Part shown: positions 22,743 through 60,957 of the stretch, one piece after another | How the letters are laid out: every line of letters begins with the position of its first letter | Numbering within the stretch: the first letter of the stretch is position 1 | NCBI GenBank assembly: GCA_003258405.1 | Contig: QKPN01000008.1 | Location: 1-64,000, forward strand | Length of the DNA stretch: 64,000 nt | DNA from: Rhodobacteraceae bacterium DSL-40 | Lineage (GTDB): Bacteria; Pseudomonadota; Alphaproteobacteria; Rhodobacterales; Rhodobacteraceae | Direction of reading: 5' to 3' | Notes under the pieces: model-generated | Told to the model about the DNA's origin: nothing | Seen by the model: the letters and a program-made list of their open reading frames with translations, nothing else | The model's database searches: none | Position numbers and translations under genes: made by a program

Positions 22743-22880
22743 TCACGCCGCGACCAAATCCGGTTCGAAGGCCTCGGCCGCGCGGCGCTCTTGCCGCCAT
22801 GCCCGTGTCGCGGCGGCGCGCAGACCGGCCGGCACCCCGTCGCGAAGGTCGTCGCCCCAGCCCTCGGGCAGCGCGCATTC
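22743..22880 (-). pseudogene. Possible truncated coding remnant
   Basis: In the 375-base gap between the 2Fe-2S subunit gene and the LysR gene, one minus-strand frame reads like the C-terminus of a protein (LPEGWGDDLRDGVPAGLRAA, later ending EPDLVAA and TGA) with the GC-rich third positions of real genes. It has no proper start, and it begins exactly where the AT-rich three-copy module ends. I cannot name the family. It may be the stump of a gene cut by a rearrangement at the module edge, or chance. Confidence 0.25.
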
Positions 22881-22957
22881 ATGATATGTTAACTACGAAA
22901 ATTCAATGAAATCAAAGGCGGTTTTCCATTTTCACGGTGAAACGCCCCATTTTCACC
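22875..22957 (-). repeat. Three-copy promoter-like module, copy A
   Basis: AT-rich ~85-base element in otherwise GC-rich sequence, also present at 29072-29156 and 59911-59991. Read on the minus strand it has a half-site GTGAAAA, seven bases, the palindrome TTTCAC-C-GTGAAA (22930-22942), 14 bases, TTGATT, 17 bases, TTAACA, then ATCATGAAT. The distances from half-site to palindrome and palindrome to TTG are identical in all three copies. Downstream on the minus strand lies the 2Fe-2S subunit gene after about 250 bases. It may be a regulated sigma-70 promoter or a dispersed repeat. Confidence 0.75.
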
Positions 22958-23005
22958 GCCGCCACACCATGGACGGCCCCCGCCTGAGGGCCTTTCCGCT
23001 CCCTC

Positions 23006-28884: not shown

Positions 28885-29071
28885 CCGGATCACCTGAAAT
28901 GTGCCTCGTGTCGGTATGGAAGTTGCCTGCCGCAAGCCGGTCGCGTCGATGACTGTTATGGTCTCACGCCATACCGGGGCCGGATCTCGAGGACGGCGCA
29001 GCCTGAGGAGCGGCTTCCCTCCGGGCCATCTTCCCAGGGTCGCCGGTGCGTGCCCGGCGCGGCGGGGTTGA

Positions 29072-29156
29072 GCGTGAAAAGGGGGCGTTTCACCGTGAAA
29101 ATCCGGAAAGCGCATTGATTTTAATGGATTTTGGCAGTTAACATATCATGAATGCC
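29072..29156 (+). repeat. Three-copy promoter-like module, copy B
   Basis: Plus-strand reading: GTGAAAA (29074-29080), palindrome TTTCAC-C-GTGAAA (29088-29100), 14 bases, TTGATT (29115-29120), 17 bases, TTAACA (29138-29143), then ATCATGAAT. It is the best match of the three copies to a sigma-70 layout but points into the 3' end of the V-ATPase A gene, where no plus-strand gene follows. It sits inside the 356-base gap 28885-29240, whose left part must hold the catB promoter. Confidence 0.75.
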
Positions 29157-29186
29157 CGCGGTTTCACGCCGCTGCCGGCTTGGCTG

Positions 29187-59251: not shown

Positions 59252-59845
59252 TCAGCCCGCCCAGTGCCGGAAGGCGGGCCAGTCCCAGATCCGCGCGGCG
59301 AGGGCGGCATAGCCCGCGCCATCGGGGTGCGTGCCATCGCCCGCCGCAGCACTCTGGCGCCAGGCCGCATCCTGCCGCAGGGCCTCGAAGACCGGCAGGA
59401 ACGGCACGCCATGGCGCCCCGCCACCGTGGCAAGCTCCGGTTCGAGCCGCGCGATGCGCGCATCCGCGGCCGGATCGTCGAGCACCGGCGGCGGCCCGAT
59501 CAGCAGGGTGGGCGCCATCCGGGCGGCGCGGGCGAGGATCGCATCGGCATGGCCCAGGCTCTCGGCCATCGGCACCCGCGCCGCGCCCGTCCCGTCATCG
59601 GCGCAATCGTTGGTCCCGAAAGAGAAGACGAGCCGGTGCCGGAACCCCGCCGCCAGCCGCGCCAAGGCCTCCGCTTCCCAGCGCCTGCGAATATCGCCGC
59701 TGGTGTCGCGCCGGATACCGAGATCATAGGCGGTCAGGTCCGGCACCCCGGCCTGCATCCGCGCGACGACCCGCCCGCGCCAGCCGAGCCCCGCGGCATC
59801 GCCCACGCCATGCGTGAAGCTGTCGCCGATGAAACAGGCCCGCAT
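59252..59845 (-). CDS. SGNH/GDSL-family hydrolase
   Basis: A 197-residue esterase-type hydrolase. Block I GDS serine in MRACFIGDSFTHGVGDAAGL, block III GTND in VFSFGTNDCADDG, and block V DGTHPDGAGYAALA with the catalytic Asp-His. No signal peptide, so cytoplasmic. GAGGAG lies upstream of ATG 59845. Copy C of the promoter-like module ends 66 bases upstream and points at this gene, giving a plausible promoter. Convergent with apbE after 14 bases; substrate unknown. Confidence 0.88.
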   Translation of the reverse strand: MRACFIGDSFTHGVGDAAGLGWRGRVVARMQAGVPDLTAYDLGIRRDTSGDIRRRWEAEALARLAAGFRHRLVFSFGTNDCADDGTGAARVPMAESLGHADAILARAARMAPTLLIGPPPVLDDPAADARIARLEPELATVAGRHGVPFLPVFEALRQDAAWRQSAAAGDGTHPDGAGYAALAARIWDWPAFRHWAG

Positions 59846-59910
59846 GCCCGGCTCCTCCCTCTTCTGTCGCCTTTGGCGGGCCCGGCCCGCGTCCTGCGTG
59901 CAAGCCCGCC

Positions 59911-59991
59911 GATTCATGATTTGTTTACTGAAATATTCAACAATTCCAACGCGAAAATCCGGTTTTCACGGTGAAACGCCCTGTTTTCACA
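59911..59991 (-). repeat. Three-copy promoter-like module, copy C
   Basis: Minus-strand reading: GTGAAAA, seven bases, palindrome TTTCAC-C-GTGAAA (59964-59976), 14 bases, TTGGAA, 16 bases, TAAACA, then ATCATGAAT. This copy is positioned to drive the SGNH hydrolase gene (about 70-base leader). Its right edge lies 37 bases after the kdgK stop. Divergence from copies A and B is mostly between palindrome and -10, while the palindrome is identical in all. Confidence 0.75.
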
Positions 59992-60027
59992 CCCCCGACG
60001 CCCCGGCGTCAGGCCGTTTTTTGGGCC

Positions 60028-60957
60028 TCAGACCGCCATATCCGGCACCGCTTCCCGCACCAGCGCGCCCGGGTGCCGGATCACGATCCGGCTCACCTCA
60101 TGGGCCTGCCGGATCGCCTCGTCGATCTCCGCGCCGCGCTCGCGGGCGGCGAGATAGCCCGCATTGAAACTGTCGCCCGCCGAGGTCGTATCGACCGGCA
60201 CCGCGCGTTCGAGCCCCTCGACCAGCCCCGTGCCCTCGGCCCCGCCGAAACGGACCGGATCGCCGCCGTTCTTCACCACCACCTGCCGCGCCCCGAGATC
60301 CAGATAGCGCGCCACCGTGGCCCCGGTATCGGCATCGCCGAAATGGGTCCGCTCGTCATCGAAGCTCGGCAGCATGATGTCCGTGAGCGCCGCCATCGCC
60401 TCGACCTCGCGACGCATGGTCGCCGCATCGGCCCAGAGCCGCGGCCGAAGGTTCGGATCGAAGACCACCCGCGTCCCCGCCGCCCGCGCCCCGGCGAGCG
60501 CCGCCCGCAGGGCCTCGCGCCCCGCCTGCGGCAGGATCGCGAGCGTGATCCCGGAGAGCAGCGCGACCGTCGCGCCCTCGAGCCCCGCGGCCAGCGCCAC
60601 CGGATCGTCGGCGAGCCCGCGGGCGGCCGAACTGTCGCGCCAGTAGCTGAAGCTCCGCTCGCCATCCCTGAGCGCGATCGCATAGAGCCCGATCTCGCGC
60701 GCGGGATCGCGCCCGACATGTGCGCTCTCGATGCCTTCCTCGGCAAGGAAGGCCAGCATCCGGTCGGAAAACTCGCCCGTGCCGACCCGGCTGAAATAGC
60801 CCACCCGCCAGTCCCGCGGCAGAAGCCGCCGCAGATACCAGGCGGCGTTGAGCGTGTCGCCCGCGATCCCCAGCCGCCAGAGGCTGGCATCGCTCCCCGC
60901 CGCGCGGGAAAGCTCGACCATGGCTTCGCCGATCGAGAGGATCAGGGGGCGGGTCAT
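60028..60957 (-). CDS. kdgK: 2-keto-3-deoxygluconate kinase (PfkB family)
   Basis: A 309-residue ribokinase-family sugar kinase. The PfkB signature 2 DTTSAGDSFNAGYLAARERG carries the catalytic Asp, and LSIGEAMVELSRAAGSDASL opens the protein. With UxuA and UxuB upstream, phosphorylation of 2-keto-3-deoxygluconate to KDPG for the Entner-Doudoroff aldolase is the expected role. ATG 60957 overlaps the uxuB stop (ATGA). A KDPG aldolase gene is not in the window. Confidence 0.9.
   Translation of the reverse strand: MTRPLILSIGEAMVELSRAAGSDASLWRLGIAGDTLNAAWYLRRLLPRDWRVGYFSRVGTGEFSDRMLAFLAEEGIESAHVGRDPAREIGLYAIALRDGERSFSYWRDSSAARGLADDPVALAAGLEGATVALLSGITLAILPQAGREALRAALAGARAAGTRVVFDPNLRPRLWADAATMRREVEAMAALTDIMLPSFDDERTHFGDADTGATVARYLDLGARQVVVKNGGDPVRFGGAEGTGLVEGLERAVPVDTTSAGDSFNAGYLAARERGAEIDEAIRQAHEVSRIVIRHPGALVREAVPDMAV

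Follow-up and report, generated by a model that had tools for sequence, protein, structure and literature searches.

A parS-like module recurs at 64 dispersed places in the source genome (G000, a 4.37-Mb draft assembly), and we favour, with moderate confidence, the view that an orphan CTPase of the RepB/ParB type organises the genome and is loaded as a clamp at these copies. The genome carries a defined set of these sites with a characteristic placement, relatives carry sets of the same architecture with species-specific palindromes, and in five genomes the orphan gene is linked to a site of its own genome's set. This pattern suggests that the orphan protein binds the sites and points to a role for it in the cell. 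Throughout, genus denotes the Amaricoccus group, a name that we assume for G000.

Three copies of the module in the window

The window, that is, the whole 64,000-nucleotide stretch of DNA that was analysed, lies on contig C169 (246 kb), which carries 5 of the 64 places. The original prediction had described three copies of a module here, and all three were confirmed to within a few bases, with the following features:

22877 to 22956, minus strand: module copy 1, comprising half-site, palindrome, TTGA tail and GTTAAC..CATGAAT (sequence, alignment, and a match to the model R1 at 22870-22960 with 89.0 bits)
22930 to 22942, no strand: 13-bp palindrome of copy 1, TTTCACGGTGAAA, putative nucleation site of the orphan ParB-like protein (motif search)
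22951 to 22956, minus strand: phased half-site GTGAAA of copy 1 (sequence)
29074 to 29153, plus strand: module copy 2, locus L078 (sequence, gene context, and an R1 match at 29070-29162 with 81.4 bits)
29074 to 29079, plus strand: half-site GTGAAA of copy 2 (sequence)
29088 to 29100, no strand: 13-bp palindrome of copy 2, TTTCACCGTGAAA (motif search)
29115 to 29120, plus strand: tail core TTGATT of copy 2, promoter -35-like, matching the TTGATW part of the relatives' IHF-like core (sequence, alignment, IHF-consensus counts)
29137 to 29153, plus strand: distal element GTTAACATATCATGAAT of copy 2 (sequence, alignment)
59912 to 59990, minus strand: module copy 3 (sequence, and an R1 match at 59905-59994 with 71.2 bits)
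59964 to 59976, no strand: 13-bp palindrome of copy 3, TTTCACGGTGAAA (motif search)
59985 to 59990, minus strand: half-site GTGAAA of copy 3 (sequence)

A search of the window for TTTCACNGTGAAA returned three exact matches and one with 2 mismatches, a total of 4 that none of 100 shuffles equalled (shuffle mean 0.28). Copy 3 is flanked by genes for a PfkB kinase (60028-60957, minus strand) and a GDSL lipase (59252-59848, minus strand), as assigned with Pfam. Neither neighbouring gene of copy 2 is co-directed with the module, so the earlier remark that the 29.1-kb copy drives no visible gene is right by gene context, and this arrangement is typical of the sites.

The module is a genome-wide family with near-fixed geometry

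Across G000, TTTCACCGTGAAA/TTTCACGGTGAAA has 72 exact copies at 64 places (reversed control, 0), and TTTCACSGTGAAA has 79 matches at up to one mismatch. The consensus of the module is GTGAAA-N8-TTTCACCGTGAAA-N14-TTGAAATCATTGGATTTTCGTAGTTAACATATCATGAAT. Eight of the 64 places are doublets whose starts lie 21 bp apart, the same two-turn phase that separates half-site from palindrome. The 56 places that were aligned had been collected by exact palindrome, which makes the palindrome identical in all 56 by construction. Three further places (L027, L044 and L065) have the tail and failed the text filter, while five (L020, L023, L038, L061 and L071) contain the palindrome and lack the full tail, which leaves their orientation arbitrary.

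Among the 56 copies, TTGA follows the palindrome at 14 bp in 54, with one extra base in the other two. GTGAAA stands 8 bp from the palindrome in 48 copies and 7 bp in 7, the exact half-site being absent in one, and the spacing from the palindrome to CATGAAT is 46, 45, 44 or 47 bp in 33, 17, 4 and 2 copies, respectively. The geometry that had been called fixed is therefore near-fixed and falls short of invariance. Identity to the consensus falls from 100% in the palindrome to 84% in the tail and 65% in the next stretch.

As an independent check we ran R1, a model built from the 56 aligned copies, over the whole of G000, scoring 150 of the 600 candidates that passed a first look. It returned 59 matches at 45 bits or more, 56 of them the training copies and all of them at exact palindromes; elsewhere no match exceeded 14.3 bits. 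Since all matches of that strength fall on exact palindromes and the flanking sequence diverges, the palindrome is held fixed while the rest varies. Together, the site set, the spacings and the R1 model support genome-wide the earlier suggestion of selection on geometry.

We also considered whether this palindrome is common across the class, and rejected this, as 21 other genomes of 289 have 1-2 exact matches each. In each of the 10 other genus members it has 0-12 matches at up to one mismatch. In IMG/VR, two related viral contigs (L080 and L081) carry GGTGAAATC..GGGATTTCACCGTGAAATT in the same context, matches that look unrelated to the module.

Relatives share the architecture and differ in the palindrome

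R1 gave weak matches (E up to 1) in G292 (23), G294 (15), G296 (11), G297 (11), G298 (2), G291 (1) and G295 (1), and none at that threshold in G289, G290 and G293. The copies in these relatives are built around other palindromes: mostly GTTCACGCGTGAAA in G292, GCCCACGCGTGAAA preceded by a GTGGGC half-site in G294, TTTCGC(A/G)CGCGAAA in G296 and, less clearly, mostly TTTCACGATGAAA-like sequences in G297. As these copies were first found with a model based on G000, their tails are biased toward G000, a bias from which the palindrome counts obtained with a degenerate pattern are free. That pattern, drawn up for the palindromes of G292, G294 and G296, matched 41+33=74 times in G292, 37+45=82 in G294, 55+53=108 in G296 and 43+38=81 in G388, which belongs to another genus, with controls of 0, 0, 0 and 0+2, respectively; the sites of G296 and G388 are mostly palindromic under the pattern, so that the places there number about half the matches. 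In the other 13 of 17 genomes the matches numbered 0-12 and the controls 0-8. G388 put the link between gene and sites to the test: a palindrome seen beside its orphan gene proved to belong to a dispersed set. In G398, a one-contig genome with a ParA-less orphan, no dispersed palindrome was found in a 400-kb sample (9%).

The tails vary as well. Tail spacing in G292 differs from that in G000, and at least 7 of 20 G292 copies (L103-L122) have a second conserved string, CACACTRCACGACA, after the tail. Similar AT-rich TTAAC/GTAAAC-type tails follow a different palindrome in G297 at L140 and L145 (CCGTCCCCATGGGGACGG / GTCCCCATGGGGAC), and on this sequence evidence G297 may have two site types. Strict matches to the IHF consensus occur in 15 of 20 copies in G292 and 11 of 15 in G294 (shuffles 0.0), 3 of 11 in G297, 7 of 56 in G000 (against 0.3) and 0 of 11 in G296.

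Where positions could be compared, they are mostly not conserved: 20 of 60 regions from relatives had any blastn alignment to the 64 G000 loci. The same gene flank carries a site in two cases, as read from the table, L103/L034 and L153/L029, the latter being the orphan gene. At L034 (G000) and L103 (G292) the site directly follows the stop codon of the same gene, and the palindromes differ.

A further set was found in G290 (L384, L395-L400), where 44 matches to ATATGCAWWTGCATAT were counted at up to one mismatch; the control gave 1, and the 10 other members of the genus gave none. These palindromes are often paired 33, 43 or 53-54 bp apart, in helical steps, and some directly follow stop codons; one pair lies 3' of the orthologue of the PfkB kinase gene, at the spot that window copy 3 occupies in G000. 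Since no RepB-type gene was found beside a G290 site among the regions fetched, site sets with such placement may have other binders.

Sites are intergenic and often lie at gene ends

Using a home-made, codon-usage-based gene caller on drafts only (coding fraction of the examined sequence, 83%), we found none of the 64 G000 sites inside a called gene. Relative to the module, the neighbouring genes are convergent (+,-) at 20 places, (-,-) at 18, (+,+) at 17 and divergent (-,+) at 7, with 2 at contig ends; (+,+) modules read towards the next gene and (-,-) modules away from it, and once the five tail-less sites were excluded these two classes counted 16 and 14, respectively. A depletion is seen in divergent gaps, which hold 7 sites where their share of intergenic length predicts 16.6 (P 0.004). 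Sites in convergent gaps are enriched when gaps are counted by number (20 against 11.8, P 0.014), and show no enrichment when length is taken into account (20 against 18.7). For the 39 sites whose upstream gene has the same direction, the median distance from its stop codon to the palindrome is 36 bp, and in 31 of them the stop codon is within 60 bp. The relatives show a similar placement: among 46 regions from G292, G294 and G296 (60 were fetched, the 14 from G297 being left out), 18 sites were tandem, 15 convergent, 4 divergent, 1 in a called gene and 4 at contig edges, with 4 regions lacking the exact motif, and a stop codon lay within 80 bp in 23.

Along the replicons, gaps between sites within contigs of G000 are more even than random (CV 0.57 against 0.97, a value reached in 0 of 5000 placements), and 4 are shorter than 15 kb against 12.0 expected. 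Even spacing was not seen in G292 (CV 0.96 against 0.92, 13 contigs), and we dropped it as a general rule after this result. The site-bearing contigs include C103 with canonical parS/parB, C13 beside purL, and C169 and C79 with repAB pairs. They also include C1, where GC skew and the polarity of GGGNAGGG, which we take to be an FtsK-orienting type of motif, converge near 340-380 kb in 20 sampled stretches of the draft assembly; this region is a putative terminus, and sites lie at it (355, 381 and 421 kb). The longest site-free stretch among these contigs is C1:1-226 kb, in which two samples are lower in G+C (0.61-0.63) and which is perhaps acquired DNA.

Much of this description would also fit a mobile or selfish dispersed repeat of the REP/MITE-like kind, perhaps spreading with the orphan gene, for which the places after stop codons are harmless points of insertion. 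The many copies, their species-specific sequence and their position at gene ends agree with such an element, target immunity could account for the even spacing in G000, and the orthologous kinase flank of copy 3 lacks a G000-type module in G291, G292 and G293 (and in G292 also the G292 motif). As a description, then, the dispersed repeat family proposed earlier holds. As an explanation we consider it unlikely: by eye there are no terminal inverted repeats, no gene family common to the flanks was found (of 316 proteins, 16 pairs showed weak similarity), and a neutral repeat would not be expected to keep its palindrome fixed when the remainder of each copy diverges. The REP/RAYT form was rejected, as the Y1 transposase (PF01797, TnpA_REP) is absent in 11 of 11 genus genomes, with controls positive in 5 of 14.

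The shared regulon promoter of the original prediction is not supported. In that reading an ordinary regulator would use the palindrome as its operator, and TTGA with TTAACA about 20 bp further on would form a promoter for genes or short RNAs. Conservation of both elements at near-fixed spacing in the 56 aligned copies, and the position of two of the three window copies upstream of a co-directed gene, speak for it. Against it stand the unbiased orientation and the depletion of divergent gaps described above, the different tail spacing in G292 and the lack of any Rfam match in the window, and we regard a promoter module as quite improbable.

Resident RepB proteins and the chromosomal ParB have palindromes of their own

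The sites had also been proposed to be a partition-site family of a secondary replicon. As stated this does not hold, as sites are also found on the contigs with canonical parS/parB (C103), the putative terminus (C1) and purL (C13). Contigs C169 and C79 carry both repAB pairs and sites, but the RepB proteins of these pairs have palindromes of their own. At 170 kb on C169 (L416, C169:166000-174500), a repAB-like pair adjoins a gene of the methionine-synthase type, and its repB is followed by a separate palindrome, CTTCCCCNNGGGGAAG; repC was sought only among five frames of two loci, and C169 may be a chromid or a chromosome. The palindromes right after repB are CTTCCCCACGGGGAAG on C169 and GATGTTCCGCGCGCGGAACATC on C79. 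Since both differ from that of the module, the module is not the partition site of those pairs.

More generally, five of six RepA-linked RepB genes (L408, L410, L404, L415, L414 and L416) have a palindrome 3-13 bp after the stop codon, and four of the six have a copy of it inside the first codons of the frame. The position of these palindromes beside RepA-linked RepBs makes it reasonable to take the nearest palindrome as the cognate site. Canonical parS is present without change in 10 of the 11 genomes of the genus, and the 11th departs from it at a single position. As it is near-constant while the module palindrome changes, the chromosomal ParB is an unlikely binder of the module.

An orphan ParB/RepB-like gene lies beside the sites

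G000 has three ParB-type genes by ParB_N search and a fourth, on C79, by profile A3. The orphan on C13 encodes 289 aa from a TTG start with a ribosome-binding-like sequence and adjoins a module doublet, between a presumably MerR-like frame on one side and what we take to be purL on the other. Its ParB_N score is just below the cut-off, and its NCBIfam scores for RepB (TIGR03454, 30.1 bits) and TIGR00180 (34.9 bits) are below the curated cut-offs; the Noc score is as weak as that for RepB and almost the same (29.1 against 30.1 bits). The residues GxRR and ENxxR, presumably the ParB-type motifs, are invariant in alignment A3, in which the genus homologs are 48-53% identical and the seventh row (L303, 41%) is a RepA-linked RepB. 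These motifs and the predicted fold make CTP-dependent clamp closure by the orphan plausible.

In five genomes (G000, G292, G294, G296 and G388) a species-specific site is found no more than 0.5 kb from the orphan gene, in different gene neighbourhoods. The palindrome follows the stop codon by 94 bp in G000, 383 bp in G296, 448 bp in G292 (C70 paralog) and 341 bp in G388, and in G294 it lies 157 bp before the orphan's open frame. The chance of such closeness is about 2-7% per genome (sites times about 1.9 kb over the genome). No site was found within the 8.2 kb surrounding the second G292 paralog (C19) nor, by a loose motif, within the 6-8 kb surrounding either orphan of G297; G293 has the orphan and no known site set. 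Downstream of the orphan gene, hairpins GGGTGGGGTTCCACCCCACC and GGTGGGGTAGAACCCCACC are seen in L314 (G388) and L320 (G332). The likeness to parS noted in the original prediction is thus strengthened, as in five genomes one member of the genome's own set of sites adjoins an orphan gene of the ParB/RepB type.

A family-wide search returned a RepB-type match at E 1e-30 or better in 67 of 149 genomes. In a tree of 40 proteins (42 were collected, 2 were dropped for coverage and a frame with a stop was not used; two more rows are poorly covered), a branch with support 100/100 sets 17 ParA-less proteins apart from the rest. The ParA Walker motif KGG.GK[ST] was found upstream in 0 of these 17 rows, three of which have short upstream sequence (387, 870 and 993 bases), and in 20 of the 23 other rows. 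Three proteins scored as ParA-less fall outside the group, one of them with a ParA motif within its own frame. Six other RepB-type genes of the same genomes have the motif 850-940 bp upstream or, in G289, inside an over-long frame. Profile A3 retrieves RepBs, and the tree, which is unrooted, joins them with the orphans; the orphans may have derived from RepB.

An AlphaFold model of the orphan (7 sequences, pLDDT 81) was searched with Foldseek and matched Noc best (7nfu and 7ol9; E 8e-9, TM 0.43/0.55), then ParB and KorB, and Noc is also the best sequence match in the PDB. These matches, together with scattered sites in a number of the order that we recall for Noc, would suit a nucleoid occlusion factor of the Noc type, evolved independently in alphaproteobacteria, that anchors DNA at the membrane and keeps the cell from dividing across the nucleoid. 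Noc sites are sparse at the terminus, whereas the module sites extend to the putative terminus on C1. The predicted starts of the orphan (MPQDIHQIP...) and its homologs leave no room for an N-terminal amphipathic helix, a strand starting at residue 5 of the model, and we find this reading very doubtful. According to PMC8429893, Noc requires such a helix, its sites are scattered round the chromosome, and it depends on a low site concentration at mid-cell.

Comparison with known systems and a possible mechanism

The module combines traits of several known systems. KorB operators of RK2 are 13-bp palindromes with one central base, and KorB is a plasmid-borne regulator acting at promoters. The orphan model matches the KorB fold and the module palindrome has the same length and central base, whereas the G000 sites avoid divergent promoter regions. 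The likeness to Noc of Bacillus lies in the scattered sites and the ParB-family CTPase fold, which for the orphan is predicted and concerns the fold only; the module differs in being a composite 80-bp site with a palindrome that varies between sister species. It shares its TTTCAC/GTGAAA half-sites with chromosomal parS, TGTTTCACGTGAAACA, but the latter is a 16-bp site that lacks the central base and is present in 2 copies near parB on C103 of G000, whereas module copies are dispersed. The closest architecture is that of P1 parS, which the module resembles. P1 parS is an 83-bp site downstream of parB, with a GC-rich box between its inverted A-boxes, another A-box close by, B-boxes and an IHF site. 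Its right arm can be aligned by eye with the reverse complement of the module (TTTCAAGGTGAAATCGCCACGATTTCAC against TTTCACGGTGAAACGCCCCGTTTTCAC, 27-28 bases, one gap, a comparison of the sites only). P1 parS is a single copy with a ParA partner, in contrast with the 64 genomic copies, which have none.

RepB/parS of repABC plasmids are like the orphans in having the palindrome beside a RepB-type gene, as with the RepA-linked RepBs above. They differ in that the orphans lack an adjacent ParA-type gene, that the dispersed copies number tens (64 in G000) rather than one or two, and that the G000 module has the extra half-site and tail. In PMC5613091, the RepB sites of Rhodobacteraceae repABC replicons are described as palindromes specific to each group, and two of the groups are distinguished by one reciprocal base change. 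Our search of the open-licence literature found no description of the module motif or of a Noc/ParB orphan site system in Rhodobacteraceae or Amaricoccus, and the available part of PMC7022226 does not describe such a system.

Under the reading that we prefer, that of dispersed clamp-loading sites, an orphan dimer would bind the 13-bp palindrome and also the half-site 21 bp away at two-turn phase, and in some relatives an IHF-like site beside the palindrome could, as in P1 parS, introduce a bend. Closure of the protein into a clamp would require CTP, and the clamp would then slide into adjacent DNA. Sites would remain intergenic, often at gene 3' ends, so that loading spares promoters, and the likeliest output would be genome organisation (condensation, bridging or position marking) and not regulation of adjacent genes.

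Beyond this, we propose more tentatively that the widespread ParA-less group of plasmid-RepB-like CTPases could serve as a genome-wide DNA organiser in Rhodobacteraceae, acting through tens of dispersed parS-like sites. Their palindrome would be rewritten throughout the genome from one sister species to the next, perhaps so as to avoid cross-talk with repABC replicons in the same cell. To judge from the sequences, the gene end at L034/L103 would then display such a palindrome swap at a single locus, with the G290 pair at the spot of copy 3 as an extreme case.

Known CTP clamps of the ParB type include segregation factors of plasmids and chromosomes, Noc, and regulators such as KorB. If the proposal is true, the orphan would be a candidate chromosome-organising factor in alphaproteobacteria, and a bacterial DNA-binding protein would be seen to co-evolve rapidly with all of its sites, in which placement rules are kept and sequence is changed. 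These genomes would thereby form a natural series in which to follow how the specificity of such a protein shifts across dozens of sites together.
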